Positions 9,393-63,808 of a stretch of DNA of 64,000 bases are shown piece after piece. A model generated the notes under the pieces. The model saw only the letters and a list, made by a program, of their open reading frames with translations, did no database searches and had not been told where the DNA came from. Source of the stretch: Defluviitaleaceae bacterium (GTDB taxonomy: Bacteria; Bacillota; Clostridia; Lachnospirales; WQUN01); the NCBI GenBank assembly GCA_009777845.1, contig WRLD01000001.1, positions 1 through 64,000 of the forward strand, in the 5' to 3' direction. Within the stretch, counting starts at the first letter, position 1. Every line of letters begins with the position of its first letter. The position numbers and the translations under genes were made by a program.

Positions 9393-11195
9393 CTAAAAAT
9401 ATTTCGCCAAAATTTCCCAGAACTCGTCTATAGCAAACATACGATTCCAACTTGCTACGCCAGCCAAATTGTAGCCGCTAAAAATGTTAATTTTTTCCTG
9501 CATGGAGCGCGCATCCTCTAGCCACACCTGGAAAACCACGCTTTCCCCCTCGTGGTACGCCGAAGCCTCGCCAAAATACACGCCGTTGATTTCGTCCCAT
9601 TGCCATGTGCCGCCATGCTCCTCAAAGAACGCCCGCGTGGTATTTGTGCCAATCGCGCGGAAATGCGTAACCTCGCCTGTGGCGGGAACGGTACGCCAAA
9701 CGCGGTTATAAAACGGCACGCCCAGAATAAGCCTGTCCTGCGGAACTTCCAACAACATATTTTCCACGCCGCGCAAAACAAAGGGCAGGGAGGCGTTCGG
9801 GCCTGCATCGGGGGAGGTCGCCCAGTGTTCATCATATGCCATAACCATAACAAAATCCACTGTTTTGGCAATTAAATCGCGCCTGTAGAAATCTGTCGCG
9901 GCAATGGGAACCTTTACCGCCGCGGAAAGCACTATGCCGCGTTGCCGCATAGGAATCGCAAGCTCTCGCAGGAATTGTATTTTGTACAAGCCCTCCGCGG
10001 CGGAAAGATGCTCAAAGTCTATGTTTATTCCGTCCAATTCGTACGCCTCGGCAAACGCAACGAGCTGTTCAATAACAGCGCGGCGGGCTTCCCTGCTTGT
10101 TAGCATTAGGCGGCTCTGCGTGTACCACACGTCAAAAACCATGGGCCACACCAACACGCCCTGCGAATGCGCCCAGTCTACATACGCCTTGCTTGCCACA
10201 GAATCTAAGCCAGTGCCGTCCTCGTTTATGCGAAACCACATAGGCGCGACAGCCGTAAGGCTAGAGTGCAAGGGCGTTTGCATAAGCGAAGCATTAGCAT
10301 CTACGTGATACACCGCTTCCCAAGTGACATTGATAGGCATGTCGCCCTGCCAAATTTTGGCGTGATGTACGCCATTGTTAATATAATCGCCCAAAAGCCA
10401 CTCGCGCTCTATGCCTTGCAGGGGCGGCGCGGTGTCTAGGTCGCGTATATTTGTGTAGTGCATGTAGCCCAACAGCCCGTCCATTGTACGCACGCGTACA
10501 TAGTCGCGGTTGTCCTCGTTTTCGCTATTGTCAAATTCGCCTGGGAAAACGACAATTTCGTCGCCCTCGTTTAGCCTCGCCGTTATTTGTCTGCTTGCCG
10601 CGCCATAGTGTACGGCGGCGTTTTGCGAAGAAATGCGCGCCATTGTTTGCGGCTCGTCCGCAGAGGTAACGATTACGATATTGTTCGCCTGCTCTAGCCG
10701 CACAATGAGCGGATACAGCGTTTGCAACAAGGAAGCCGCCATATAAAGCTCGCCGTTTCTCTCAAAAACAGGCGTAGCGAGCGGCTTATACACGCCGTTA
10801 TGCAAATAAAATTCGCTGTCCAGCGAAAATTCCAGCATATCGCTAAGCGTAGAAATAAACAGCGCCTCGGCGTATTCGTCCCAAAAAATAAACGGGTCGA
10901 TATTGTTTTTCACAAAGCTGACCGCCAAATAAACCTGCGGCTCTGTGCCGCCAAGCTCGACAATAGGCACAGCCTCACGCCGCAGCCACTGGCTATCAAA
11001 AATCAACTGCGGCACAGACGCGTCTAAGGAATAATGCTCGTGAAATTCCACGATTACATTTCCGCGCCCTAGTCCGCCAAAGGCCTCTCGCACATAGGGC
11101 ATAACAACACGCAAAAATAACACCGCTACCCCAAACAAGAGGAGCAGTGTTATTATGGTGTTTATTAGTAGTTTTTTTAGATGTGTGGGTTTCAT
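9393..11195 (-). CDS. Membrane-anchored GH18-type hydrolase
   Basis: The 600-residue protein has one N-terminal membrane anchor (residues ~8-30), a middle region with an SH3b-like part (ITARLNEGDEIVVFPGEF), and a C-terminal GH18 barrel. The catalytic motif is LDGINIDFEHL around residues 385-395, with the acid glutamate at its end; the barrel continues with DFVMVMAYDEHW and DRLILGVPFYNRVW. Relatives of this layout cut peptidoglycan or spore cortex sugars (YdhD/SleL type) rather than chitin. I chose the ATG at 11195; a GTG at 11207 overlaps the ribosome site AAAGGTG. Confidence 0.8.
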   Translation of the reverse strand: MKPTHLKKLLINTIITLLLLFGVAVLFLRVVMPYVREAFGGLGRGNVIVEFHEHYSLDASVPQLIFDSQWLRREAVPIVELGGTEPQVYLAVSFVKNNIDPFIFWDEYAEALFISTLSDMLEFSLDSEFYLHNGVYKPLATPVFERNGELYMAASLLQTLYPLIVRLEQANNIVIVTSADEPQTMARISSQNAAVHYGAASRQITARLNEGDEIVVFPGEFDNSENEDNRDYVRVRTMDGLLGYMHYTNIRDLDTAPPLQGIEREWLLGDYINNGVHHAKIWQGDMPINVTWEAVYHVDANASLMQTPLHSSLTAVAPMWFRINEDGTGLDSVASKAYVDWAHSQGVLVWPMVFDVWYTQSRLMLTSREARRAVIEQLVAFAEAYELDGINIDFEHLSAAEGLYKIQFLRELAIPMRQRGIVLSAAVKVPIAATDFYRRDLIAKTVDFVMVMAYDEHWATSPDAGPNASLPFVLRGVENMLLEVPQDRLILGVPFYNRVWRTVPATGEVTHFRAIGTNTTRAFFEEHGGTWQWDEINGVYFGEASAYHEGESVVFQVWLEDARSMQEKINIFSGYNLAGVASWNRMFAIDEFWEILAKYF

Positions 11196-11260: not shown

Positions 11261-11721
11261 CACGGCTCGGGAGTTATTGCGAATGTTCTCGCGAATAGGT
11301 AAAACTTGTCAATAATTACCCCAATGTCGGCTTCTGCCCAAAATTCGGGGGGTATGTCGTAAAACATTCGGATATAATCCATATCGTAGAGCATGGCATC
11401 ATGTTGGGCTTGGTCTATTATATACCAGTCGAGCATTATTTCGAGTATTAGCGTGGAAGATGGCTCGTCACGTAACCAATCCATACGGTCTATTATATAT
11501 TGTGTGCGTTCGTCCCTTCCCGTTGAGGGTTGAGGGGCAACCAAGGTATAGATTGACAATATAATAAACCACGCTACAAATATTATCAGTGCCAGTATAC
11601 GCCACGGTATTTTGTCTGTAATGGTTGCTCTACCAATCCACAAATCCCTATGTTTATTTATCCAAGCTGCATATAGTGTTACTCCAGTCGCAAGCAACGC
11701 TCCCCAGATTATCCGCTCCAT
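11260..11721 (-). CDS. Small two-TM protein, duplicate copy
   Basis: A 153-residue protein of unknown function with two N-terminal hydrophobic segments and a cytoplasmic or surface helix region (SSTLILEIMLDW, IDQAQHDAML, PPEFWAEA). It is a clear paralogue of the protein at 11986-12453, sharing the last ten residues LFARTFAITP-EP and most of the middle. Its ATG overlaps the stop of the preceding partial gene (TAATG). It arose by a tandem duplication with a 726-base offset. Confidence 0.7.
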   Translation of the reverse strand: MERIIWGALLATGVTLYAAWINKHRDLWIGRATITDKIPWRILALIIFVAWFIILSIYTLVAPQPSTGRDERTQYIIDRMDWLRDEPSSTLILEIMLDWYIIDQAQHDAMLYDMDYIRMFYDIPPEFWAEADIGVIIDKFYLFARTFAITPEP

Positions 11722-28848: not shown

Positions 28849-30914
28849 TGCTCTACCAATTCCCAATAACAAACAAGCGCGTAAGCCGCCTGCTGTGTAG
28901 CCATTCCGTTAATCGAACTAGTCCTGTGCGGGCTTTTAAATGCGCCGCTTTCCAAATCGTACCAACGTAGCAAGACCTCCACATGGCTTGCCGCGTTGGT
29001 TTCTATGGCCGTAAACGCGAGAATAAGCTGTGCCGCGGTTTCGGGCGTTTCTGCTTCCTGTCCGCGTAGCCAAATAAGCGACATGGTGACCGCCGCCCAG
29101 ACATCTTCACGCCCATAATACGGCGCGAGCGCCTGTATCGCCATGCAAGTAATATCAATATCTCCCTCGGCCTGTGCCGTCAAGCCCCACGAGCCGTCCG
29201 CGTGCTGAGTATCGAGCAGGCTTTGGATATATTGCTCGCGTTGCCCCTCGTACTCGCCCGAGTCGAGCGCCATAAGCGCGAATATGTCTACATTTGTAGT
29301 CTGGTTGATATACTCGCGTTCGTTTATGGGAATAAATTCCTTATATGGCAAGGTATAGTCGTGTTCGTTATACGCCGCCGCGTCCATTCCTAGGGCGGTA
29401 AGCACGAGAGTAACGCGCTGATAATCCGTCCAGCCTCGCAAGGCGTGGCTTTCCATGCTTTCGAGCCATTGCCCCGCCTGCTCCTGCGAAGCGCGGTTTG
29501 CCCTCGCCAGTGTAAACGCCGCCCAGTCCCAATCGCCGACAAAATTCTCATCAAGCCAGTCTAGCGAGGTGTTCATTGCCGTTTGCCAGTCGATTTCTAG
29601 GTCGTAAATATAGAGCCATTCTACGTCGTCGCCGTCCTGTAGCCTTATGCTATCCGCCGCCGCTTGCGGCGAGTGGCTATTTACGCGATATTCCCAGCCA
29701 GAGGTCGGGCCCTTGTCAAACTCCGCAAGCCCGTCTATGGAATAAACATAACCGCCGCGCGCGCCTATATCTAGCCCTGTTTCCAGTAGCGCATCATAAA
29801 TGGAAGCACCGGACGTGACCTCTACCGCGCCCGAAAAGAACGTAATCCCGTTAAGCTCGCTTATTGTCACGGAAGCGGTGGCACGCGCCTGCTCGGAGGG
29901 CGGAGGCGGCGGCTTGGGAATGCCCTCGGGAATGGGATTTAGCCCAAAAAAGCCGTCACTCATATCATACAGCGCGTTTCTGTGGTGGTGGTAGCGGTCG
30001 TACGCCACTAGCGCGTAGGCGGCTTGCTCCGTGGTAAGCCTGTTTGCCGCGCGGCCGCTTACGTGCCATTCGCCGTTTTCGTCCATGTCCCACACATCGG
30101 CGGTAAAAGCGCCCACGCCGCTATCGTAGTATTCAAGCATACTGTACACATACTCGCGCGGGCTTTTTCCTATAGCGGCGAATGCGACAATCAGCTGCGC
30201 GTACGTTTCCGCACTGGAAATATCTTGCTCGTCAATCCATTCAAGCGCGGCGGTAATCGCCTGTGTAACGTCCTCGCGTTCGGCGTAGTACGGTGCAAGT
30301 GCTTGAATAGCCATAGCCGTGGTGTCTACGTCCTGCCATTCGCCTATTGCCCATGCGCCTGAGGGGTGTTGTGCGGTTAGGATAGCGGTGATGAAGTGGC
30401 TAGGTTGGGTTTGTGGTTCTATTTGTGATTCGGATTGTGATTCTGTTTGTGCGTGTTCTTCTGCTTCCATTTTGCCATTGGCATTAAGCGCGAGAAGCAT
30501 GATAATATTGTCGCTTACATTCTCTGACGGTATAAATTGCCATTCGGGGGCTTCCTGCCCCAAAGCAGTCAACACAAGAGTTAAACGAGCGTTGTCCGCT
30601 TGGCTTAAATTTTCGGTGTCTATTTGTTCCATGTTAGACATGTACAAGGAGTACCATTCCGCATGATTGACATCTGCCCTCGCCACAGCAAGCACCGCCC
30701 ACTCATCGCCAAGTGTCGGGCTTGGTATTTCCTGCAATAGCCAGCCCAAGGAGCTTGTCATAGGCAAAGAATAGTAGCGCGTGCTTCTTATAATTACCGA
30801 CACCGCTATAGGCACAACAGCAAAAATAAGCACCGCCACAAGGGCAAAGCTAAGCATGGTGGGGATTTTGAATTTTGTGGTTTTGAATGGTTTGGGTGCT
30901 TGGGGTGTTTTCAT
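28845..30914 (-). CDS. Membrane-anchored prenyltransferase/squalene-oxidase-repeat and DUF4430 protein
   Basis: The 689-residue protein has an N-terminal membrane anchor (residues ~20-45) and two alpha-toroid-type repeat blocks with repeated DGSWGL, TAMAIQALAPYYAERE and AYALVAYDRY motifs. A DUF4430 domain sits between them (ISELNGITFFSGAVEVTSGA to DDVEWLYIYDLE). The toroid plus DUF4430 order is that of intrinsic-factor/transcobalamin-like proteins, which bind corrinoids between the two domains. It starts the ECF operon, preceded by GAGG. No cobalamin riboswitch was seen in the leader, which weakens the cobalamin assignment. Confidence 0.85.
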   Translation of the reverse strand: MKTPQAPKPFKTTKFKIPTMLSFALVAVLIFAVVPIAVSVIIRSTRYYSLPMTSSLGWLLQEIPSPTLGDEWAVLAVARADVNHAEWYSLYMSNMEQIDTENLSQADNARLTLVLTALGQEAPEWQFIPSENVSDNIIMLLALNANGKMEAEEHAQTESQSESQIEPQTQPSHFITAILTAQHPSGAWAIGEWQDVDTTAMAIQALAPYYAEREDVTQAITAALEWIDEQDISSAETYAQLIVAFAAIGKSPREYVYSMLEYYDSGVGAFTADVWDMDENGEWHVSGRAANRLTTEQAAYALVAYDRYHHHRNALYDMSDGFFGLNPIPEGIPKPPPPPSEQARATASVTISELNGITFFSGAVEVTSGASIYDALLETGLDIGARGGYVYSIDGLAEFDKGPTSGWEYRVNSHSPQAAADSIRLQDGDDVEWLYIYDLEIDWQTAMNTSLDWLDENFVGDWDWAAFTLARANRASQEQAGQWLESMESHALRGWTDYQRVTLVLTALGMDAAAYNEHDYTLPYKEFIPINEREYINQTTNVDIFALMALDSGEYEGQREQYIQSLLDTQHADGSWGLTAQAEGDIDITCMAIQALAPYYGREDVWAAVTMSLIWLRGQEAETPETAAQLILAFTAIETNAASHVEVLLRWYDLESGAFKSPHRTSSINGMATQQAAYALVCYWELVEQ

Positions 30915-31109
30915 TTTTATACCTCGTTGCTTTTTTAGCTCGTTTTTTTAACTCGATTTTTTAGCTCGTTTTTTGGCGATTTTTCATGTGCGGTTTTTAG
31001 TTTAAACAACTTATACATTAAACCTGTTGTTACGCCCTCATTATATCTCGCATAACATCAATTTTCAACACATCTACACGACAAACGCACGAAGCCGAAA
31101 TGCGTAAAT

Positions 31110-31222
31110 CAAACACGGATTTAGCGGATTTCCACGGATTTACGCGGATTGGCTCGTGGGAAAATCCGCTAAGTCCGAAAGAATCCGCGAAAATCTGCGT
31201 AAATCCGCTAAATCCGTGTACT
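31110..31222. repeat. Family A repeat
   Basis: One compact inverted copy of CGGATTTA-type units with a GGCTCGTGGGAAAATCC centre, in the gene-free 30915-31383 spacer between the xylanase and ECF operons. The rest of that spacer holds AT-rich TTTTTTAGCTCG direct repeats (30925-30970) and family C copies. Confidence 0.85.
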
Positions 31223-31246
31223 ATGCTTTCTAAACTATAGTAAACC

Positions 31247-31391
31247 GTTAAGGCTTGCCACGATATTCCCACCAACAAAAAGTCGGTGAAAAGGGGCTAT
31301 GCCCCCTCGTGACGACATTCCCAATACCTACACACTAAAGGCTCGTGACGACATTCCCACCACACTACAGCGGTGAAAAGGGGCTACGCCC
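31247..31391. repeat. Family C repeats, two to three copies
   Basis: AAGGCTTGCCACGATATTCCC, GGTGAAAAGGGGCTATGCCCC, CGTGACGACATTCCC and GGTGAAAAGGGGCTACGCCCC lie in tandem. The last copy reaches into the xylanase gene and supplies its stop codon. Confidence 0.8.
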
Positions 31392-34300
31392 CCCACACCA
31401 ACCACCTCATAAAAGCACTAACATCAGCCGCATTAACAACCCCATCACCATTCAAATCCGCCACAGCAAACATCGGGCTTGACGGCACAGGCAACGTAAA
31501 GCCTGCATGACCTGCAATCGCGCGCGCGAGCCATACCACATCGGCGGACGATACCGCACCCAAGCCATTTGTGGAAACCGCGCCTAGTCTAAGCCATTGT
31601 GCGGTAACGGTGGTGTTGCTGGTTATATTAGTAAAGGAAGTGTCCCATGAAAGCACGTAGCCGCTGCGTTCCGCTATAGGCGCGGTAGCCGCTGCGTTTT
31701 GGGATATAGTCTGCGTAAGATTTCCGCCGCCTGTGTGCGTACCGCCGTTTAGGTTGAAGGTCACTTCGTAGGTGGTAGGCTCGGTAAAGCTAATGTCTAG
31801 CCAAGCCTGCGAAATAACGTCACGCTCCGCCCAAGGAGCGGCCGCGCCCATACTGCCGCGCGCGGTGTTAAGCCTGTTGTTGCTTGCACGAGTGGCGCGG
31901 TCTGTTCCCTCGGCGGTGTTAGAGCCTGGAATAGTTCCTCCGCCTATGTCTACGGTCAAGATTACATAGATATAATTCGCCGTGACACCGCCCGACACAA
32001 GCAACGCCCGAGGTATAGCAAGCTCCGTTTCCGTTGTGCCGTTGCCGAACGAATTTGTCATGCGTACCTGCCCTGTGGCGGCATAGTCGCCCATGGCGAT
32101 ATTGGACGAGGTCGCAAACGTGATATTTTCACGCGATACAGCCTCGGGCGTAAACGCGGTAGTACCGCCTGCGCTAGTCATGGTCTGCGTCGGGTACGAG
32201 GATAAATCCGTCCACGCCAAAATCCGCCGTGACGTGTCCCACGCAGGGCTAAAGGAAAAACGCAAAACGCCGTCACCTGTACTATTGGCGATTCTCGCGC
32301 GGTTTATGTCAGAAATTTCCAGCCTAAGCAGGTGATTACCGTTACCCATTTGCGTGACAAGGGGGTCTGCGGGGGTAATGCGCCTATCGGGCTTCCAGAA
32401 TATTACTGGGTCTGTAGGGTCGGGCGGATTTTCGGGTATTGCCCTGTGAATAAGAATATCGTGTATAAACCATGTTGTGCTTACTTGGTTGCCGCGTATG
32501 CGTAGGTGGTTGTGGCGTGAGGAGGTCATGTCGGAGCTTATTAAATTGAGAATGTCCTGCGTTACCGTGAACGTAATCGTATGATTGCCGCCTGCGGCTA
32601 CGCTTGCGGAGGCCACAGTGTTTGCGGTAGCGGCGGAAGAACCAGCCTGTATGGAAATCGTGTTCGCGGCAGTGCCTTGATTTGTCACTAGCACGCTAAT
32701 TACATCGCCTGGCAGGATTTCGACCGTTTGCGAAGCAGGGTATAGAGGGGCTTGGGAAGTGCCTGGCGGGTCGGTATTGTTTCTCGCATAGCCAGTAGGC
32801 AGAATATCCACGCCGCGCCAATGTCCGCCCGAGCCAGCAGGCACGGAAACACGCACAATGCCGCTTCCCATGGTGTGTACGTCTATCGCGCCGCCTGCCG
32901 AGGTCTGCAAGCCAGCCGTATTCGCCAAGGTGTCGCCAGTAGGCAAGCCCAACGCCCTAAGCTGTAGCACAGCCTCACGCCCCTCGGGAACGATAAGCCT
33001 CGCGCGTTGTGTGGGCGGCGGCGTGATGCCCCTGCTGACTAAATCCAGCACTGAAATACCTGCCACGGTAACGTCCGTTATAGTAAAATTGACGTTACGC
33101 AGGGCTTCGGCAGTGCCTAGGAATGGGTAGCTTGTCGCGCCCGACCATGGCTCGGTTATTTCGGCGGAGCTTGGCACGGTTATTGTAAAGTTTCTATTAG
33201 AAGTAGAAACTGTCGCGCTTACGCCTGTGCCTTGCAGGTCTAAACGCCCTGCGGTTGTACCTGCTACAGTGCCGCGGATTACAATGGGCGGCGGGTTGCT
33301 TGCCCCAAACAAGGCGCGCAGCGCAGGTATGTCTATAAATATGCCGTTGTTGTGGTCGTGCTCGCCAGTGCCGCGGCCGCTTACGGTTAAGCCACTGTCC
33401 GTGGGCGTTACGGTCGCGCCCCTTGGCTCAAAAAACGCCGAAGCAAGCGCAGGTGTCCACAGCGTATCTGGAATGGGGTCGCCGCCGCCGCCGCAATGCG
33501 TACAGCCGTTATTTGTACAAGCAATGTCCGTACCGTTTACGATACATAGGTATTCCACCGCGCCAGTACCCGTACTGCGGCTATCGCCGCCGAAGCCTTC
33601 TACTGTGAACGAAACCTCGTACAGCCTAGCCGTGGGGCTAAAGCTGGCGGTCGTGCCAGTGCCAGAGTGAGTTTGCGTGGGAATTTTCGACCAAGCGTCA
33701 AAATGCGCGGACACGTCTATTGTGCCGGAAATCGGCGTTGGCCTGTTCGAGCTGTTTCTGCGAACGCTGAAAATTTGTAGGAATGTCGCGTTGCCTGATA
33801 GCGAGGGCTGGTTTACGCGCCAGTTTGTCAAAATATCGTAGGTCGCGCCGTTTGCGGTTATTGTGCCGTGGCTTGTGTAGCCCGCGGCGGACGAGCTAGG
33901 CACATAGTTACGCCAGCCGTCAATAATGTACCATTCTATCATTGGGCTTTCCGTCCAGCCGTAAAGCGTGAGGTATGTAGCCCCACGGTTGCTTGTGAAC
34001 GCGGTGGCATTGTACGCTACGGAAATTGTGTCCAGTGAATCTAGCCTAGGACGTGAATTAGTAGGGCCGGGAAATCTTCTGCCTACGCGGAACAATGAAT
34101 TGTACGTAGATGTCCATGTGCCAGTGAACGAGCCATTGCTAAATATTTCCATCTGCATACCCTCTGCGCCGCGGTCGTCTGTCCACGCCTCGTAGTCAAA
34201 GCCGTTTACTCTGCCGCTTGTTGAGTTGTTTGCGTGGCGGTTTGGCGGAGCGGTGAGGTTGTGTACCCGCGTGAGGTTGAAGGCTTGTATTGTGGGGTCT

Positions 34301-44834: not shown

Positions 44835-44948
44835 TTTTGTACCTCCTAGTGGGTTTATAAACGTACGAATGGCAAAATTTGTTGGGTTTTTAAAACCGAA
44901 TCCGTGGGGTCTTTAAAACCGAATTTGCGGGCTCTTTAAAACCGTCTT

Positions 44949-45061
44949 TGTAGGGGACGGATTTATCCGTCCCGAGGCTACTTCGTTTTTCGTTAATGGA
45001 CGTTGCCTGCCCCGAATTGACGAACGTGCGTACCTCGGGACGGATAAATCCGTCCCCTACA
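44949..45061. repeat. Family B palindromic repeat
   Basis: A compact 113-base copy: TGTAGGGGACGGATTTATCC at the left, GGATAAATCCGTCCCCTACA at the right and a core GTTAATGGACGTTGCCTGCC. Flanking AAAACCGAATCCG segments are also duplicated around it. Confidence 0.88.
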
Positions 45062-45070
45062 GAAAGACTA

Positions 45071-45203
45071 TTAAACACGGATTTAACGGATTTACACGGA
45101 TTATGCGGATTACACGGATTACGCGGATTGGCTCGTGGAAAAATCCACGAAAATCCGATAAGCCCGATAAAATCCGCGTAAATCCGTTAAATCCGCGTTT
45201 AAT
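45071..45203. repeat. Family A repeat
   Basis: A complete inverted copy (AACACGGATTTAACGG to AATCCGTTAAATCCGCG) with GGCTCGTGGAAAAATCC in the middle, sandwiched between two family B copies. Confidence 0.88.
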
Positions 45204-45233
45204 CGCCTTTTAAAACCGAATCCGCAGGGTCTT

Positions 45234-45346
45234 TGTAGGGGACGGATTTATCCGTCCCGAGGTTGCCTCGCTCTGCGTTAATGGACGTTGCTCGCCCCGA
45301 ATTGACGAACGTGCATACCTCGGGACGGATAAATCCGTCCCCTACA
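45234..45346. repeat. Family B palindromic repeat
   Basis: A second 113-base copy, 285 bases from 44949, nearly identical including the core TTAATGGACGTTGCTCGCC. The A-B-A-B order in 44949-45512 suggests that a composite unit was duplicated. Confidence 0.88.
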
Positions 45347-45355
45347 AAAAGACTA

Positions 45356-45512
45356 TTCGGATTTAACGGATTTACGCGGATTTTATCGGACGTATCGGAA
45401 TTATCGGATTTTCGTGAATTTTACAACGAGCCAATCCGCACAATCCGTGAAAATCCGTTAAATCCGTGTGAAGCCCTTGAATCCCTTAAATCCGCATAAA
45501 TCCGTGTTTAAT
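45356..45512. repeat. Family A repeat
   Basis: An inverted copy with a TATCGGACGTATCGGAATT centre. It carries the TGAAGCCCTTGAATCCCTTA segment also found in the in-gene copy at 25651-25938. Confidence 0.85.
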
Positions 45513-49046: not shown

Positions 49047-49307
49047 ATGGGAGAATCAAAACAATGTCTTGTGGATAGTATGATAAGACATATCGGTCAA
49101 ACTGTCACTATTTTTACAACAAGCGGAGGCCTTTCCGGCAACGGCTTTAGCGGCGTTTTGCTTACGGCTGACTGTGGCTGTATCCGTCTGCTTGCAGACA
49201 TTGGCGCACCGCCTGCTTGTGTGGGCGGTAACAAACTCCTATGTCGGCTGCCCCGCCACCCTTGCCCTTTTTCAAGCGAACAAATCTCGCCTGCCCGAAT
49301 GTTTTAA
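49047..49307 (+). pseudogene. Host gene interrupted by the serine-recombinase element
   Basis: ATG at 49047 has a perfect AAGGAGG upstream. The first ~57 residues, from MGESKQCLVDSMIRHIGQTV through SGNGFSGVLLTADCGCIRLL to GAPPACVGGN, resemble a small clostridial protein family whose members continue with a further cysteine/glycine region and a conserved C-terminus. After about 49220 the frame only reads antisense to the recombinase end and then stops. I infer that the element integrated near 49220 and that the 3' half of the gene is at the other element end, not found in the window. Confidence 0.55.
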
Positions 49308-50853
49308 GCATAACCTTAATGTCAAGCGTGTCTGCTTCCCCTGTTTTGTGGATTTCAATACGCTCGATAAGCGCGTCCACAATGGAATTGCTAAATCCTC
49401 CGCTAAAATCCATTTCCGAAAACAGCATTTTGCGAATGTCGTTCATGGTTTTGGCTAGATTTTTGTTTTTGTCCTCAGCTTCGTGGATTTTGGAAATTTT
49501 CTGATTTATTGCGGTTATTTCTTCGTTAAAAACCTCGTTACGTTCTTCAAATTCTGCGTTGGATATTCTGCCGTCTATACTCAAATCCAAAAGCCTGTCC
49601 TTTTTCTTTTTTATGGCGGTTATTTGTGACGAGAGCTTGTTTAGCTGTTCGTCGCTTTTTGATGTGTTTGCGACCTTGGCGTAAACATTCACGAGGTTCT
49701 CGATTATGCTGTCTTTGTCCTGTACGAATTGAGCATAAATCCCTTTTACGATTTCGTCAAGTTCTGTTGTGTAAATAACGGGGCTTTTACATTCGTTTTT
49801 GCTTCGGCATTTCCAAACCTCTTTATTGCCCGAGGGATATTTGTAGATGTCGTGGTAATAGGGCTTGCCATGCTCGGCACAATAGATTTTTCCGCTGTAA
49901 GTATATTTGTTTTGGTAGCTTGTTTTGTCGGCGGAGGATTGTTTTCTACTGCGTTCTTCCAAGATGGCGTTGGCTTTTTCCCACAATTCTTCGGTCACAA
50001 TCGGCGGTACGGCTTCCTCGTTTTTGTACATAATCCACTCGGATTTATCGCGTAAAACCTTTGTATCTAAGCGATAGTCAAATTTATGGCTTTTATTGCC
50101 GCAATAATAGCCCTTGTACTTAGGATTGGTGATTATTCGCCTAACGGTTGACATTGTAAGCGGATTGCCGTTTTTGTTGTTAATCCCCTCTTGACTTAAA
50201 CGCAGGATTATACCTCGTATGCCGATGTTTTCTGTTGCGTACATGGTGAAAATCTTTCGCACCAGTTCGGCTTCTTCTTCTACTATAATAAGCCGTCCGT
50301 TCTGTTTTTCATAGCCCCAAATATTATTGTTGCCGTGAACAACGCCCTTTGCGATTGAGCGCTGCATACCGAAGTTTACACGCTCGGACAGCTTACGAAC
50401 CTCGTCTTGCGCTATGCTAGACATGATTGCGAGCCTCAATTCCGAATCGGGCATAAGCGTGTTTATGTTGTCCGACTGGAAAAATACGCCAACGCCCGCG
50501 CCGAGCAGTTCCTGCGTGTATTTTATGCTGTCTAGGGTACTACGTGAAAAGCGTGATATTTCCTTTGTAACAATAAAATCAAACTTCCCCGCCCGAGCGT
50601 CCTCAATCATTTGTAGGAATGATTCGCGCTTAGTTACTGACTTTCCGCTTAACGCTTCGTCAATATAGCCGTCAACAAACGTCCATTCCCTGCATTTCCT
50701 TATAAAATCGGAATAATAACCGACTTGATTTTGCAGGGAGTTTGCCTGCTCGTCCGAACCGGTGGACACCCGCGCGTAAAACGTAACTTTAAGCGGTAAA
50801 TCAAAAATTGTTTTCCCCGAATTAAGCGCGGCTCGCATTTCGTGGATTTTCAT
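49162..50853 (-). CDS. Large serine recombinase (site-specific integrase)
   Basis: A 563-residue recombinase. The catalytic domain holds FYARVSTGSDEQANSLQNQ with the nucleophile serine, then EISRFSRSTLDSI. The recombinase domain (GYEKQNGRLIIVEEEAELVR, INNKNGNPLTMSTVRRI), a zinc ribbon (YCAEHG and CRSKNECKS) and a coiled coil follow. Such enzymes integrate and excise phages and ICEs at specific attB sites. The last ~25 residues run antisense through the host gene, so the attachment site is inside or just beyond the 3' end. A small gene lies 55 bases upstream. Confidence 0.93.
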   Translation of the reverse strand: MKIHEMRAALNSGKTIFDLPLKVTFYARVSTGSDEQANSLQNQVGYYSDFIRKCREWTFVDGYIDEALSGKSVTKRESFLQMIEDARAGKFDFIVTKEISRFSRSTLDSIKYTQELLGAGVGVFFQSDNINTLMPDSELRLAIMSSIAQDEVRKLSERVNFGMQRSIAKGVVHGNNNIWGYEKQNGRLIIVEEEAELVRKIFTMYATENIGIRGIILRLSQEGINNKNGNPLTMSTVRRIITNPKYKGYYCGNKSHKFDYRLDTKVLRDKSEWIMYKNEEAVPPIVTEELWEKANAILEERSRKQSSADKTSYQNKYTYSGKIYCAEHGKPYYHDIYKYPSGNKEVWKCRSKNECKSPVIYTTELDEIVKGIYAQFVQDKDSIIENLVNVYAKVANTSKSDEQLNKLSSQITAIKKKKDRLLDLSIDGRISNAEFEERNEVFNEEITAINQKISKIHEAEDKNKNLAKTMNDIRKMLFSEMDFSGGFSNSIVDALIERIEIHKTGEADTLDIKVMLKTFGQARFVRLKKGKGGGAADIGVCYRPHKQAVRQCLQADGYSHSQP

Positions 50854-50908
50854 TTGTGACCTCCTTTAGCTAGAATATTTACCGCCTAATTATACTATGT
50901 TCAAATTA

Positions 50909-51100
50909 TTATTGCAGCGCGGCAATCGCTTTTTTGTCGGGATTTTTTGAAATTTCTTTTTTCGCTTCCCTTAATATGATTTCGGTGGCACTAGCGCACA
51001 TTTCAGCAGTTAGAAAGCCCTTGCGGTGTAGTTGCTGTGTCATAAATAGCTTTATTTCCGTTTCAACGGCGTTAGAAACGTCAGAGTGCGTTGCGTTCAT
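50909..51100 (-). CDS. Small SHOCT-like protein upstream of the recombinase
   Basis: The 63-residue protein (MNATHSDVSNAVETEIKLFM, then LHRKGFLTAEMCASATEIIL) resembles the small SHOCT-like proteins that precede serine recombinases in clostridial mobile elements. It could be a directionality or accessory factor; this is inferred from position. The ATG at 51100 has GGAGGGGA upstream, better than the alternative five codons earlier. It is read in the same direction as the recombinase. Confidence 0.7.
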   Translation of the reverse strand: MNATHSDVSNAVETEIKLFMTQQLHRKGFLTAEMCASATEIILREAKKEISKNPDKKAIAALQ

Positions 51101-51115
51101 TTTATCCCCTCCCAT

Positions 51116-51570
51116 ACGGCAATTTCACTATTGCTTACATTTGATTTCAATGTATTCCCGTGTATTTGTCCGTGTTACGGCGCAGGGAATAAAAATACAT
51201 ACAATCACTGTACATGTTTTAGTTTTAAAAAAGGCTAGGGAAAACCCTAAAAGGTAATATCTCATGCCGCCATTAGTAATGGCTTATATGGAGTTTCACC
51301 CCGCCAAGGTCGCTCATCGTGTATCATTGGCGGCCGCCTGTTGTTTTCCAAACAAACGGTTTCAAACTCTGTCTGCGGGTCATCGCACAAGCCGTACTAA
51401 TAGGCTTGCTTGAAAAAACGCTTATCGCTCTCGTTTTCACGGTCATGGCGGCATTTTTTCAATCGCTTTTCCTTTCGGCACACAGACAGGTCTTAGCATT
51501 GAAATATTTTTTATGACCGAAAAACTTCGGTATTTGTAAAAATCGTAACCATAAATGCTACGTTTCCCTT
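51116..51570. other. Gene-free region between the two recombinase genes
   Basis: No convincing gene. Open frames exist in the + strand around 51260-51516 but lack ribosome sites, and their products are unnatural. A small hairpin, ACCGAAAAACTTCGGT, lies at 51514-51529. Promoters for the SHOCT-like gene must lie at the left of this region. Confidence 0.4.
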
Positions 51571-51572
51571 TT

Positions 51573-51598
51573 TGCACGATAAAAACAGTTATCCGTCA
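51573..51598. repeat. Left core-type site flanking the tyrosine recombinase
   Basis: TGCACGATAA, a 6-base spacer AAACAG, then TTATCCGTCA: two inverted 10-base arms (imperfect) around a 6-base overlap, the form of a tyrosine-recombinase crossover site. The first 21 bases occur in inverted orientation at 53126-53146. Confidence 0.7.
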
Positions 51599-51655
51599 AA
51601 AATAATATTTTTCTGTTTGCAAATATTATGTAAACAAGAATGAGGAAAAAGGAGC

Positions 51656-52885
51656 ATGGGTAGAATGGAAAATGAAAGAACAGAAGTAAAAAGCCTTGCA
51701 TTGCAGGGAAGCGTTGCCGTTTTTATGTTTAATTTTTGCGATTCGCTTATTAGCAATACAGAGATTTCGCTAAATGAAGGGAACGGAGGGGACAATATTG
51801 GCGTATCATGGTTTAAAAATATGCTAAAATCCTTGGCTTTGAATAACGCAACGGCACATGAATATGGGGAAGAAATAGGTATTCCTATTTGTTTGCCAAA
51901 ATCCGAAAAAGCTACGAATCGTATAAAATGTGTCGCAAGTGAACAAATATCCACATTTGCTGAGTATCTGCGGGCGAACGATAAAGCCCCCAAAACCGTA
52001 CAAGGCTATACGTCCGATGTAAAAACCATTTTGAAAATCATTGCAAGGGAACATTTCAATGGTATGGCGTTGGAATTATTAGATTTATCGAAAATAACGC
52101 AAATTCAAGTAAAATCAGCGGAGCAAGCCCTCTACAATGCCGATAACTTCAAAATCAGAACATTCTTTCGATATAAGCAGGGGTGGGGTAGCTTTTGTGC
52201 CTTTATCGGCATGAAAGAATGGCAGTTTACCCAAAAAATCAACGCAACACAGGAATACAAAAACGAAGTAATTTCTAACGGTGAGGTTACTAAAACCATT
52301 GATTATTGCACGGAAAAACGCCTTTTCGCTAAAACTGATACCGAACGCATAAGGTGGTTCAGAAAGGAAATAGCAATACGTCTTGGCTATGAAATAGGCT
52401 TTCGTTCTTGCGAATACGGCAACGCCAAGTTTGACGAGATTGGGCGTGATGGGCGAATTACAATTACACAGAGCAAGCATAACGGCGTTCGGGCTGTAGC
52501 AGTCACAAAGGAAATTTCAAATATCATAGCGGAGTTCAAAAACTTTTTAGAAGCATGTAAGTTGTTCCCCGCGAATGGCGGAATCTTTGAAAAATCGGAC
52601 GGCAAAAGCTACAGCACGTCCACTTTCCGCAGATGGCTTAAACAGACCGCCGAGGCCTGTTGTGTAGCAGTCGGTCAGGCGAAAACACACGGATTACGCC
52701 ACCGATTCGCTAGAAATTTTTACAGTAGCACTCTTGACGAATCCATGCTTGCCAACATCATGGGGCATAAATCCATGAAAACAACAAGGCAGTACACCAT
52801 TCCGACCTTTGAAAATCAAAGGGATTTAATGCAGAAATCCGTTGATATTGCGAGGGGATTTTACGAACCGCAAGCGGCGGCATAG
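51656..52885 (+). CDS. Tyrosine recombinase
   Basis: The 409-residue recombinase has a SAM-like core-binding domain (FAEYLRANDKAPKTVQGYTSD) and a catalytic domain with Arg in GFRSCEYG, a lysine hairpin (TQSKHNGVRAV), HGLRHRFAR, GHKSMKTTRQ and the nucleophile tyrosine in RQYTIP. The N-terminal ~95 residues, with no arm-binding zinc or AP2-like signature, are unrecognised. Start at 51656 follows AAAGGAG closely; an ATG 9 bases later is better spaced. It is the only gene between two inverted core sites. Confidence 0.92.
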   Translation: MGRMENERTEVKSLALQGSVAVFMFNFCDSLISNTEISLNEGNGGDNIGVSWFKNMLKSLALNNATAHEYGEEIGIPICLPKSEKATNRIKCVASEQISTFAEYLRANDKAPKTVQGYTSDVKTILKIIAREHFNGMALELLDLSKITQIQVKSAEQALYNADNFKIRTFFRYKQGWGSFCAFIGMKEWQFTQKINATQEYKNEVISNGEVTKTIDYCTEKRLFAKTDTERIRWFRKEIAIRLGYEIGFRSCEYGNAKFDEIGRDGRITITQSKHNGVRAVAVTKEISNIIAEFKNFLEACKLFPANGGIFEKSDGKSYSTSTFRRWLKQTAEACCVAVGQAKTHGLRHRFARNFYSSTLDESMLANIMGHKSMKTTRQYTIPTFENQRDLMQKSVDIARGFYEPQAAA

Positions 52886-53120
52886 CTTCAAACACATGGC
52901 TTTATTGCTTCCTTGTTAAATTGCTTTTTACTAAAAATAGAGCGGTGTAATTTTCGTGCCTTTTTTACTGCCTAATTGTCATTTTATGCCATATGCCGTA
53001 CATAGCCGTTTGCTCAGTGCTAAAAAATGTAAACGCATGTAAGAATTTGATGGACGAATCTCCTTGATATGGTAATTTTTACCTGTTATAGTTTTGTTGT
53101 AACCGATTTACTAATTATTT
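52886..53120. other. AT-rich region after the tyrosine recombinase, no gene
   Basis: No coding frame with a start site was found. It lies between the recombinase stop and the right core site and would be moved with the gene if the sites recombine. No excisionase-like frame is visible. Confidence 0.4.
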
Positions 53121-53146
53121 TGCATGATAACTGTTTTTATCGTGCA
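53121..53146. repeat. Right core-type site flanking the tyrosine recombinase
   Basis: TGCATGATAA, spacer CTGTTT, TTATCGTGCA: arms match at 9 of 10 positions. The spacer is the reverse complement of that at the left site, so the two sites are in inverted orientation 1.55 kb apart. Confidence 0.7.
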
Positions 53147-53333: not shown

Positions 53334-56300
53334 CTAAATCCTTAAATCGTCTAAATCATACCCTACCAACCACCGCAACAACGCTGTAATATCGCCTGCG
53401 TCCACAATGCCGTCACCGTTCATGTCTGCGACACGCTCATCGGGGGAATCAAAGCCCGCGTGACCAGCGATATGACGTGCGAGCCAAACCACATCTGCGG
53501 AGCTTACGTTACCTTTGCCGCCAGTAGAAACAGCCCCAAGCCGTAGCCATTTAGCCCTCACGGTAATATTGTTGGTTACGTTACTAAAGTCAATATCCCA
53601 ATCATCAAATACCCAACCCTTGCGAGTGGGATTTTCGGGCGGAGTTGCGCCTGTGCCGTGCAAAATGTTTCCTACAAAAACACTATTAGGATTGCCGTTA
53701 ATGTTGCCACCAACAAGATTAAATATCACGGAGTACGAGGGAATAGGCTCAAATGTTACGCGAACAGACACATCATCGTTGATAATCGCCGTGCGAGTAT
53801 TCCCAGAAATGTCCCCTGTGAAAGCGCCGCCTGTGATTATCCAGTTTGCTACTTGGTAGCCCTCATTCGGCGTAGCCGTAAACACTACGGTTGCGCCTGT
53901 GTCTACAACTGCGGGCGCGGTTATTGATGTGCCGTTTTCTGTAGCTGTTAGGCTACCGTTTTGCCCTGCGGTAGTGGTTACAACTACTGGAGCGGGTGCG
54001 GAAATATGCCTAAACATAGCAGTTATATTAACATCTTCGTTAGGCATGATAAAGTGTAGCGTTTGGTTTACGGTAGTTGCACTTGATTGTGAAGCCCCAA
54101 AAACGTCATTATCGGATAGCGGTATAAGTTCGTTATCATAATCTAACGGCTCAAAAATCTCATTCGTTTCACCATTAAAAATTATATCATTGGAAGCGAA
54201 CGGAACACTGCCGCCACTCGAACCGTCATAAATTGTGTCATATTCTACTGAATCGGTTTGTTGCGTTGCTGTGATGTATTCCTCCGCAAGACTATAACCA
54301 CTTAATGCGGTTTCGGACAAGGTTACATTACTGACCCAACGCTCAAATACATAGTCATTATCGGGCGTAGCTGTGACGGTGACTGTAACCGCTGTACCCG
54401 GTACAGCAGTTGATTTGTTGGCACTTGCTTCGCCGCCGACCGTTGAATTTGCGTTAATCCATCTGAAATCATAGGTCATGGCTCGTTGGTTTTGTTGTCC
54501 TGTGCTGGCTACCGCTACGACCCGCCCTTTTCCGTCACTTACTATTCCGTTCCAAAGGTGGAAAGGCTCGGGAACGGGCAAAAAGATACGTTCGTTTCTC
54601 TGTGGTGCAATGGCTACCGACATTGCGTTTCCAACCATCGCAAAAAGCCCGTCTTTTATATGCTCTAGGGCTATAACGCCTGCCGTCCCCTGTGTAGTTG
54701 TCCACGACTGCATATCCGCAGAAGTGGCAATGCTGCTTCTGTTTACAGTTGATGCAAATAAGCCGTTTCCGAATGATAAGCCCTCCCCCCATAAGGCACT
54801 ACCCAAAGTCCAGTTGATTCCGTCAGTAGAAGTAACAAGAGTACGAGTAGGACTCGGTATTGAGTTATCTACCAATCCTCTCCAAATTCGTGAGGTAGCG
54901 GCAAATACACCATTACCAAATGTTATATGCCTCCATTGTACAGACCCTGTCGCTTCTTCGTTTCGTATCTCGACAGGGATATAAGCTGTTTGCCAGTTGG
55001 TTAAGTCTTGTGACACCAAAACAACTGGTGGACGGTTATATTCTAACGTGTGCGTATAGCCCATTACCACTACCCTATCATTGTTTGCTGCGATTGAACT
55101 ATGAGAAACATTAGAAATAGTTATTTCGTTACCCGCATTATTCCAGTCTGTTCCATTTTGGGAATAGATAAGCCGTGTTCTTCCAAGTGCGGAAGCCCCT
55201 CCGACAAATACTCCGCGGGCTTTGTCATATGTCACAAAAACATTTATATAATCAACAGCCGGTAAGCCCGACAACGATTCAGTCCAACGCTCAATAATCG
55301 GCGTAAATGACAATACCACAGGCGGCAATAACTCCCACTCGTCCCCATCGGTAGAGGTCATTATATACAAGCGTTGTTGTCCACTCATTGCACCGAAAGC
55401 GACATACATATCATTGCCATATGCTATTGAACGCCACAATATATTTTGGTCGGGAGTTTCGCGTAGCTTCCACCCGCCCGATTCTATGACGATTGAAAAA
55501 GTTTTTTCGTCATAACCATGTGAATTTTCAGCTCTTATAGTCAAATCGTCAAAGACACCTATTTGCGTTGGCGTTCCTGTTATTATTCCTGTGTGGGAAT
55601 TAAAGGTTAAGCCTTGCGGAAGTGTACCAATAATCGACCAAACGGCGTGTTCATCACTTGAAATGAACCTAAACCCTACACCGCCCTTGCCATAAGCTAT
55701 ATTTACTATTCCGCTAGACGCGTCATACTCTGTGATAGTAGGCGCAAGCGGATTTTTAACTTCATTTATATATACCGCTCGTACTATTACATCTTCTCTA
55801 GGCATAATAAACGAGGCATCTCCATGTGGCCTATTATACTCCAACACTATGTTGCCCTTGACTACTTCCCAATGGCTAAAGTCATTAGATTTAGCCGCCA
55901 TTAGGTCTACCACACTATTTTCCGCAAAATATGCGGAGTATTCCCACGTTGCTCCGTCATAAACAAAAGCAGCCTCATTACCGCCGTTAGTTTCTACAGT
56001 TACCTTATATCTTCCCGAAAAATGTGCGGTAATTTCTACATCGTGGTTAGGCATAACAAACGAAGTGTGCCAATAATCGGGGCTAACGCTTACCCATTGC
56101 CAGTTTACCGCGCCTAAGTCCATGTTGCTTGTGTGTCCGTCGATTTCAGCACCATGTAATAAGGTGTTAGTCCATATGTCTACGAGTTGACCCTGTTGGG
56201 CGATAGGCTGTGACGAACGGATAGCACCAATTTCAGGGTTATTGACATTTAATGTTATTGTTTTGTAGTTTTCTAGAGGAATGAATACCGCCTGAATGTG

Positions 56301-61758: not shown

Positions 61759-61890
61759 TTAGTCGGAATCGTCTTGCTTATTCATTAAGCAAGCAGGCTT
61801 TTTTGGCTCAAACGCCCAAATATTGCCGAACGATAAGCTGCTTATATCCACGGCTAGGCTACATACAGCCGAACATAAGAGTGTAAACAT
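61759..61890 (-). CDS. agrD: AgrD-like autoinducer precursor
   Basis: A 43-residue peptide starts two bases after the agrB stop, with AAAGGAGG inside the end of agrB. It reads MFTLLCSAVCSLAVDISSLS, then FGNIWAFEPKKPACLMNKQD and DSD. The hydrophobic start, aromatic middle and EPKKP followed by a charged tail match the AgrD plan (leader, cyclic signal, recognition tail). The cysteine that usually closes the thiolactone is missing before the aromatic part; a serine (S18 or S20) may form a lactone ring instead. The gene is too short for routine gene calling. Confidence 0.8.
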   Translation of the reverse strand: MFTLLCSAVCSLAVDISSLSFGNIWAFEPKKPACLMNKQDDSD

Positions 61891-61892
61891 CG

Positions 61893-62525
61893 CTACTCCC
61901 TCCTTTCCCCAAAGATTTTATATGTTAATGGTAAAACATAAACGGTATGGGTTGTTGTTGCAATTAGTATGATATTTCTGTAAATGCTTGCTTCTGAATT
62001 TACCCCTAAATTTACCCCTAAATTTGCCCCTGCACGTTCTCCTACGAAAAGCATTATTACAAACAAGACCGCCATTACCACAAGCGTCTTTATTTTCAAC
62101 GGAAGCCTGTCACTTTCCTTAATCGGCGAATTTTCCGTAGGTGACGGAGCATATACGCAGTTAATCACAAAGCACAAAATATAAATTATAATTGTCGGCA
62201 AAAGCCCTATTTTAAGGTAAATCGCTAAAAATATGCCGATAATATAATTAGCGAATCCGACCGCCGTGCATACTGCGTTGCTCTTAAAATGCAACCCCTT
62301 ACCAAACCTACGCAAGCCGCCGAATACCGCCATAAACGCCAAAGCATACGACAGTATTCCAAGAAAGAACGAAACAACAATAAGTAGCAGCGTTTTTACA
62401 ACAAAATAGTAAAGAACCGCTACGCCGTATCTTAATATTTCATAATCGTCAGTGCCTTTTTTGTAGGCTTTTTCGCTTCGGCTTGCCATGAAATCGGTGA
62501 TTGCCGATATTGCCTGCTCGTTCAT
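61893..62525 (-). CDS. agrB: AgrB-family peptide-processing membrane protease
   Basis: The 210-residue membrane protein has five to six segments and the AgrB cysteine-protease pair in GKGLHFKSNAVCTAVG (His, six residues, Cys). AgrB cuts the C-terminal tail of AgrD and forms the thiolactone or lactone intermediate. It overlaps agrC by ATGA and is followed by agrD. Near the C-terminus a GANLGVNLGVN repeat sits in the last loop, encoded by TTTACCCCTAAA direct repeats. Confidence 0.92.
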   Translation of the reverse strand: MNEQAISAITDFMASRSEKAYKKGTDDYEILRYGVAVLYYFVVKTLLLIVVSFFLGILSYALAFMAVFGGLRRFGKGLHFKSNAVCTAVGFANYIIGIFLAIYLKIGLLPTIIIYILCFVINCVYAPSPTENSPIKESDRLPLKIKTLVVMAVLFVIMLFVGERAGANLGVNLGVNSEASIYRNIILIATTTHTVYVLPLTYKIFGERRE

Positions 62526-63808
62526 TTCTTTTCACGCAAAATCAAGAATTGAACAACTTTACCAAGTTCGATATACGTCATGCACTCTGCGTTTTCATAA
62601 GAGCGGATAATGTTCCTTGCGGTATGAAGCTCGCTTCCGCTATGTTCCTTTTTTGCCCTATACCCCAAATCACGCACGGCGTTAGTGTCTACGTCCTCGC
62701 AAATAGAATTTATGACTTTAACCGTCAAGGCTTCGTCTTTAGCATTGCGGGCTAATAAAATACGGATATAGCCGTCTTTGTTTTCAATTGCACAAAAAGC
62801 ATTATTCAGCCACTCATTAAGGATTATGAATAAATCCATTTCTTGCATAAAGCCATTGTCTATACAGCCCTCTATTTCAATAAAAATCTCGATTTTGTAT
62901 ACATATTTTGCCTTAACCGCCGCATCGAAAAGTAAATTTTTTATTAACGGCAGCTCGATTAAATCCAAATTTTGCGGCGTGAAATCGTTTTTTGTATGTT
63001 GCTCATGCACGGTCGATATATAGCTTTCAAAATGTCCCTTTAAGCCATGCCAATCTTGTGAGGAAATGAATCCGTTAAACATCTCGTACAGCTTGCTGTA
63101 ATAATGCTTTAGGCCGATTATGTTGTTGTATTTTTCCTCAATTATCATGCCGTTAATTTCTGCGAATTTTTGACGTTGTTCTTCATATATAATTTTCGTT
63201 TCGGCAGTCATAAGCTGATACGCCAAGTACGCCGTGAAGAAAAACGAGATTGAAAATAGAGAATAAAATATTGAGTAAACATAGTTGCTGTTGTTTGCGG
63301 CTAACACTAAGGGCAAGACAATGGACGTTAGGATAAGCAATATTGATTCCATAAAAACGCATTTAGCAACAATACCTAAGTGCATATAAAACCTTTGGAA
63401 TACTTTAAGAACGCCCTTCTTTGTTAAAGCGATATAAACAATCATTCCAAAAGCAATAGAAAGCCAAGACATGAAAAGGTTAAATTCTGGGGCAGTCATA
63501 ACGTCGGGCAAAAAAGCAAAAAACAAACTGCCTACCGCGGTAATAAAAAATGTAAAAACCATCATTGCGGATAAGGCTTTAAACAACGTAACCAAGTAAT
63601 TTTCGCCTTCGTCTTTAAAAACAAGAGTAGAAATCAACACCATAGGTAAATTTATAAAGCCCTCAAGATTAAGGTGTAAAAAACTTAGGTAGACTATAAG
63701 GCAGACAGCAAAGAGCCTTAAACATCTTGTCAGTTTCCTGTTTTCGGATAGCCCTACGAGAATGAGGGAGTAGGTATAGCTGACACAAATAGGAGTTATT
63801 AAGTTCAT
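62522..63808 (-). CDS. agrC: AgrC-like sensor histidine kinase (GHKL)
   Basis: The 428-residue protein has six to seven N-terminal membrane segments (~1-215), a dimerisation helix with a likely phospho-acceptor His in NIIGLKHYYSKLY, and a GHKL ATPase domain (NEWLNNAFCAIE as N box, HSGSELHTARNII as G box). It would sense the AgrD-derived peptide outside. Its ATG overlaps the stop of a 27-codon response-regulator remnant, showing that agrA formerly or normally preceded it. A full AgrA is not in the window. Confidence 0.88.
   Translation of the reverse strand: MNLITPICVSYTYSLILVGLSENRKLTRCLRLFAVCLIVYLSFLHLNLEGFINLPMVLISTLVFKDEGENYLVTLFKALSAMMVFTFFITAVGSLFFAFLPDVMTAPEFNLFMSWLSIAFGMIVYIALTKKGVLKVFQRFYMHLGIVAKCVFMESILLILTSIVLPLVLAANNSNYVYSIFYSLFSISFFFTAYLAYQLMTAETKIIYEEQRQKFAEINGMIIEEKYNNIIGLKHYYSKLYEMFNGFISSQDWHGLKGHFESYISTVHEQHTKNDFTPQNLDLIELPLIKNLLFDAAVKAKYVYKIEIFIEIEGCIDNGFMQEMDLFIILNEWLNNAFCAIENKDGYIRILLARNAKDEALTVKVINSICEDVDTNAVRDLGYRAKKEHSGSELHTARNIIRSYENAECMTYIELGKVVQFLILREKK

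Follow-up and report, generated by a model that had tools for sequence, protein, structure and literature searches.

The window, the whole 64,000-nucleotide stretch of Defluviitaleaceae DNA analysed here, contains an intact open reading frame for a protein of 409 amino acids (51656-52885, plus strand), the only gene enclosed by two crossover-like sites. On the plus strand, the left site (51573-51598) reads TGCACGATAA-AAACAG-TTATCCGTCA, that is outer arm, 6-bp spacer and inner arm. The right site (53121-53146) reads TGCATGATAA-CTGTTT-TTATCGTGCA, or TGCACGATAA-AAACAG-TTATCATGCA when taken on the minus strand. Beside the ORF, 57 nt of non-coding DNA on its 5' side and 235 nt on its 3' side complete the segment between the sites. 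The unit is thus 1574 bp long with a single recombinase ORF.

The product of this ORF matches the Phage_integrase family PF00589 (65.9 bits against a cut-off of 27.1, E 5e-18) and carries its R-K-H-x-x-R-H-Y set; by these family features it is a tyrosine recombinase. The inferred catalytic set comprises R250, K274, H345, R348, H371 and the nucleophile Y380: K274 was assigned by position, all others through alignment to XerA/XerC-like structures. We rejected an equivalence to XerC/XerD, as the similarity is weak (78 bits against the NCBIfam XerC cut-off of 335). AlphaFold run on the single recombinase sequence returned a pLDDT of 33, and the model was left out of the analysis. PADLOC gave no defence link.

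Each site is 26 bp long, and the outer 21 bases of the two form an exact inverted repeat within a wider repeat of 29 nt at 90% identity. It is the longest inverted repeat of the window at 1-2.5 kb spacing: in 20 block-shuffled windows the maximum at that spacing was 15 nt, compared with the 21 observed. In flank-limited shuffles allowing 2 mismatches, the null maximum was 17 nt versus 23 nt observed. Coordinates and shuffles therefore confirm the sequence-only reading, which had described two 26-base sites, inverted exactly over 21 bases, around the recombinase gene alone. It had also given each site inverted 10-base arms around a 6-bp spacer; the spacer is there, but the arms of a single site are imperfect palindromes, with 7/10 positions paired at the left and 9/10 at the right. 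The window's other long inverted repeat (29170-31492, 18 bp) falls within two coding genes and was discounted.

The non-coding DNA of the unit holds several further motifs. The 5' stretch (51599-51655, plus strand) includes a dyad, GTTTGCA-N7-TGTAAAC, and is a possible operator or accessory binding site. A second TGTAAAC motif, kept in the second copy described below, lies near the right end (53027-53035, plus strand); its enrichment within the window is only modest, making it a weak candidate for an accessory site. A promoter-like sequence (TTGATA-N17-(TG)-TATAGT, 53064-53092, plus strand) faces outward from a position some 30 bp inward of the right site, and its hexamers are likewise kept in the second copy. 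When the 3' non-coding stretch is shuffled, a 10/12 match with the TG element arises in 1% of cases, which is suggestive of a promoter; such a consensus match is not proof of one.

Searching the same genome, we found a second copy with an intact gene on contig 2 (90266-91888). The coding sequences of the two are 93% identical and the proteins 94%, with dN of 0.032, dS of 0.273 and dN/dS of 0.117. By this ratio both recombinase copies have diverged under purifying selection, which rules out for the second both a duplication in the assembly and a relic in decay. Similarity between the copies is bounded by the sites, whose equivalents in copy 2 lie at 9967-9992 and 11564-11589 of locus L007; the immediate flanks are unalignable, except for a 53-bp hairpin outside the unit. 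Bar one indel, the 5' non-coding stretch is the same in both copies: 61/61 aligned bases, including the end of the inner arm, an identity with a chance of 6e-5 given 85% identity at 4-fold degenerate sites. The non-coding ends of the unit are more conserved than 4-fold sites.

Comparison of the eight half-sites of both copies shows that all end in GATAA at the spacer, most with a preceding T-run and TG, for a consensus of about TTTTTGCAYGATAA. Inner arms are kept between copies. Outer arms vary beyond GATAA, being TGCAC/TGCAC in copy 1 and TGAAT/TAGGC in copy 2, so that only GATAA-N6-TTATC is constant across copies. This difference suggests that the outer arms are probably target-derived, and that the target need not be a perfect palindrome. 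In the genome, TGNNNGATAA-N6-TTATCNNNCA sites mark the four ends of the two copies and are found nowhere else, save for a single looser match in the background. We rejected the notion that inverted sites generally frame related recombinases: two apparent cases in the related genome G006 fell because their repeat, TATAATCAAGCTCCAAA, belongs to a type of palindrome that is interspersed abundantly in the intergenic DNA of that 7.7-Mb genome (loci L145 and L146).

The recombinase gene was found in 0/9 congeners, and close relatives of it in none of the GTDB genome contigs, IMG/VR, plasmids or phages. The best protein matches from plasmids and phages are partial and at most 37% identical, and plasmids and phages gave no DNA-level match to the unit. 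We also searched the 9 congeners with the joined flanks for an empty site; orthologous flanks across either insertion junction were found in none. The same ends are nevertheless found at two unrelated loci, as for a transposable element, with the caveat that a hairpin is shared outside the left end. Taken together, the second copy, the site-bounded homology, the unrelated flanks, the absence from the 9 congeners and the restriction of sites to the ends argue against a chance repeat: the unit is very probably a mobile one-gene tyrosine-recombinase cassette. One proposal of the sequence-only reading, an element inserted into a palindromic target, is upheld as to mobility by this second copy with the same ends. 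Its argument for the target is weakened, as identical outer arms are peculiar to copy 1.

Its other proposal, a self-inverting switch, bears on the spacers. These are AAACAG (left) and CTGTTT (right) in copy 1, AAACTG and CAGTTT in copy 2. In inverted reading left and right match at 6/6 positions in both copies, compared with 0/6 and 2/6 in direct reading. Both copies thus have the arrangement of an invertible segment, inverted crossover sites with matching spacers around it. Between copies the spacers differ by a single base: copy 1 has A and copy 2 has T, in each case at left and right alike, and at the other five positions all four sites agree. With only one informative base, the matching within copies is weak evidence. 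Relative to the hairpin outside the unit, the gene points the same way in both copies, and an inverted one was not seen among these two.

Most studied tyrosine recombinases require matching spacers. As the spacers here match only in opposite orientation, a spacer-matching recombinase would invert the unit, not excise it. We infer that the sites are substrates of the enclosed enzyme, which would bind the arms on either side of the 6-bp spacer and exchange strands between the left and right sites, flipping the segment. Even mismatched inverted sites would end up with matching spacers if they recombined once and were then replicated: a single inversion between unlike spacers would leave a heteroduplex in each product spacer, and replication would give one daughter with the first spacer at both ends and another with the second at both. 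Matching within each copy is therefore the expected trace of a past inversion.

The reading that fits best, in a finely balanced judgement, is a mobile Hin-like self-inverting cassette driven by a tyrosine recombinase; that the unit is probably able to invert itself is predicted from its geometry, with moderate confidence. What counts against this is that an inversion-only enzyme does not account for the presence of the unit at a second locus. Since the unit has moved, the enzyme would have to tolerate mismatches occasionally, or cassettes would be exchanged between inverted site pairs. Movement could accordingly take the form of rare mismatch-tolerant excision and integration, or of an exchange with another inverted pair.

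With its inside recombinase, inverted end sites and outward promoter-like sequence near one end, the layout resembles the Hin segment of Salmonella. There, an outward promoter and the gene for the recombinase lie between the 26-bp inverted sites hixL and hixR, which are about 1 kb apart. Hin itself belongs to the serine recombinases and needs Fis and an enhancer, and the Hin segment does not occur as a dispersed mobile unit; in our case, by contrast, the enzyme is a tyrosine recombinase, the unit appears mobile and inversion is predicted. A recombinase within the invertible segment is cited as an occasional case (PMC5903667). The same source describes, in Providencia stuartii, a segment of about 0.85 kb with inverted repeats around a recombinase ORF and read signatures of inversion; the repeats are 14 bp long and imperfect, and the segment adjoins a fimbrial locus (PMC5903667). 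In this putative invertible segment the recombinase is enclosed as here, and the text describes no second mobile copy (PMC5903667). The pneumococcal creX/psrA gene of the cod/spnIII locus encodes a tyrosine-type invertase, and its own orientation switches via inverted repeats (PMC6620402). Unlike in our unit, however, the repeats lie in hsdS genes, so that restriction specificity is shuffled, and the locus is not a one-gene unit (PMC6620402).

The main rival to a self-inverting cassette, tentative in our view, is a minimal transposon of the Tn916/Tn554/SE kind, tolerant of spacer mismatch, which would integrate into GATAA-N6-TTATC and undergo no programmed inversion. Its circle would join the inner arms as TGCATGATAA-N6-TTATCCGTCA, and the inverted symmetry would reflect symmetric half-sites only. 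Two copies with target-like outer arms, variable beyond GATAA, speak for it. Tn916 is a conjugative element of about 18 kb with Xis and an arm-binding domain. Membership of that family was rejected: Xis and conjugation genes are absent from the 1574 bp, which hold the single recombinase ORF. Tn916-type elements are like our unit in their palindromic target arms, 6-bp spacer and tyrosine integrase, and unlike it in that their spacers come from donor and target. Tn916 targets consist of T/A-rich palindromic arms with 6 bp between them, and a 17-bp inverted repeat flanks the main B. subtilis hotspot of the element (PMC11838328). This preference for palindromic arms keeps the transposon alternative alive.

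Tn554, SE, GInt and RIT are transposable units driven by tyrosine recombinases and bearing inverted repeats, which in SEs and Tn554 are imperfect and surround a 6-bp spacer (PMC10214605, PMC3414803; for the repeats of SEs and Tn554, PMC10214605). All of them encode two or three recombinases plus helpers, whereas here one recombinase stands alone. A RIT element was dismissed, as the ritA, ritB and ritC trio is absent and one recombinase ORF lies between the sites. Against a transposon of this kind, known relatives require two to four genes. Moreover, end spacers derived from donor and target need not be exact reverse complements, yet they are in both copies. The footprint rule of SE and Tn554, by which the left spacer of the donor becomes the new right spacer, fails between our copies in both directions, with two copies only to compare. 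In the open-access literature we found no precedent for a one-gene unit with full inverted core sites and dispersal.

A hairpin lies outside the unit, 234 bp from its left site (51286-51338, plus strand), with loop motif GGTCGCNCANCGTGTATCA; copy 2 has a counterpart (L007 9784-9836), likewise outside the unit, at 130 bp from the left site. The segment measures 53 bp and shows three compensatory base pairs across three sequences. In its own genome the hairpin occurs only beside the two cassette copies, and among 392 genomes of the order a covariance model retrieved one further example, in G032 (L076 8477-8527), which adjoins a large serine recombinase without a tyrosine recombinase. No Rfam family matches it. 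Other candidates were discarded: exact loop motifs elsewhere were attributed to chance, falling in coding genes of unrelated taxa wherever the context was examined; 67 viral loci with a looser loop motif fail the covariance model; and a weak match to the model in G023 lies inside a coding gene. The flanks of the hairpin can be aligned between copy 2 and G032, which suggests a larger structured RNA or DNA element.

Each of the three hairpins has a large serine recombinase no more than 1.5 kb away on the opposite strand. In the window, this recombinase forms a two-gene unit with a 68-aa ORF (49162-51115, minus strand). At copy 2, a gene for a MazF-like toxin (L007 9256-9615) separates the serine recombinase from the hairpin. 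The cassette could be part of a larger composite of large serine recombinase, small gene, hairpin and tyrosine recombinase, with the sites as internal crossover sites. We consider this distinctly unlikely, although in both copies a rare hairpin stands 130-234 bp outside the left site and, beyond it, the minus strand encodes a large serine recombinase, and the hairpin of G032 is likewise next to one. Only about 53 bp align outside the left site, against about 93% identity inside, so the history of the cassette is separate and more recent. In addition, the serine recombinases of the two cassette loci are only 25% identical, and three congeners (G020, G024 and G025) carry the serine recombinase and 68-aa ORF, at 74-76% DNA identity over about 1.5 kb, with neither the cassette nor a match to the hairpin model. 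Whether the hairpin belongs to the unit is uncertain. As it lies beside both copies and, in G032, occurs without the cassette, the cassette may prefer targets next to this hairpin, or two old loci that carry the hairpin may have exchanged the cassette.

Finally, fixed palindromic operators or terminators, no longer recombined and with the recombinase kept for another role, are very improbable: the right site itself scores terminator-like and neither inversion nor excision product was seen among the two assembled copies, but an operator does not explain why, at two unrelated loci, homology stops precisely at these sites, and a 6-bp spacer between GATAA/TTATC arms is the typical core architecture of tyrosine recombinases.

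At both loci the genes to the left of the unit run on the minus strand, so a flipped self-inverting cassette would aim its outward promoter at them. To the right, the neighbour is a convergent S8 protease gene in the window and, for copy 2, a minus-strand small ORF followed by a response regulator; neither stands to gain clearly from the promoter. Regulation of neighbours by the cassette is thus possible, if doubtful. Somewhat more speculative still is a one-gene mobile switch that would insert beside a structured hairpin, flip, and swing its promoter between both sides, amounting to transposable phase variation. The S8 protease (1822 aa) has a C-terminal dockerin-like region (window 53334-53620) that recurs in more than 20 places in the genome with 64-81% DNA identity. 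An agr-like operon of AgrB, histidine kinase and LytTR regulator is present on both contigs (window 61772-63797; L007 12106-14849), 8.6 kb from the cassette in the window and 0.5 kb from copy 2. Many intergenic and ORF-like stretches of the genome are also occupied by a dispersed family of short repeats, 30-140 bp long and 80-94% identical (window 44948-45494; L007 4183-4562 and 6428-6700).

The unit is best seen as a variation on known kinds of element, not as a category of its own. If it does invert, it would be about the smallest possible autonomous DNA switch, a single tyrosine-recombinase gene with two sites, and a movable one, uniting invertible switches and transposons, categories that are normally separate. 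It would also provide a compact setting in which to study why a tyrosine recombinase inverts DNA instead of excising it: two copies with unlike spacers (AAACAG and AAACTG) and unlike outer arms constitute a natural test of spacer matching.
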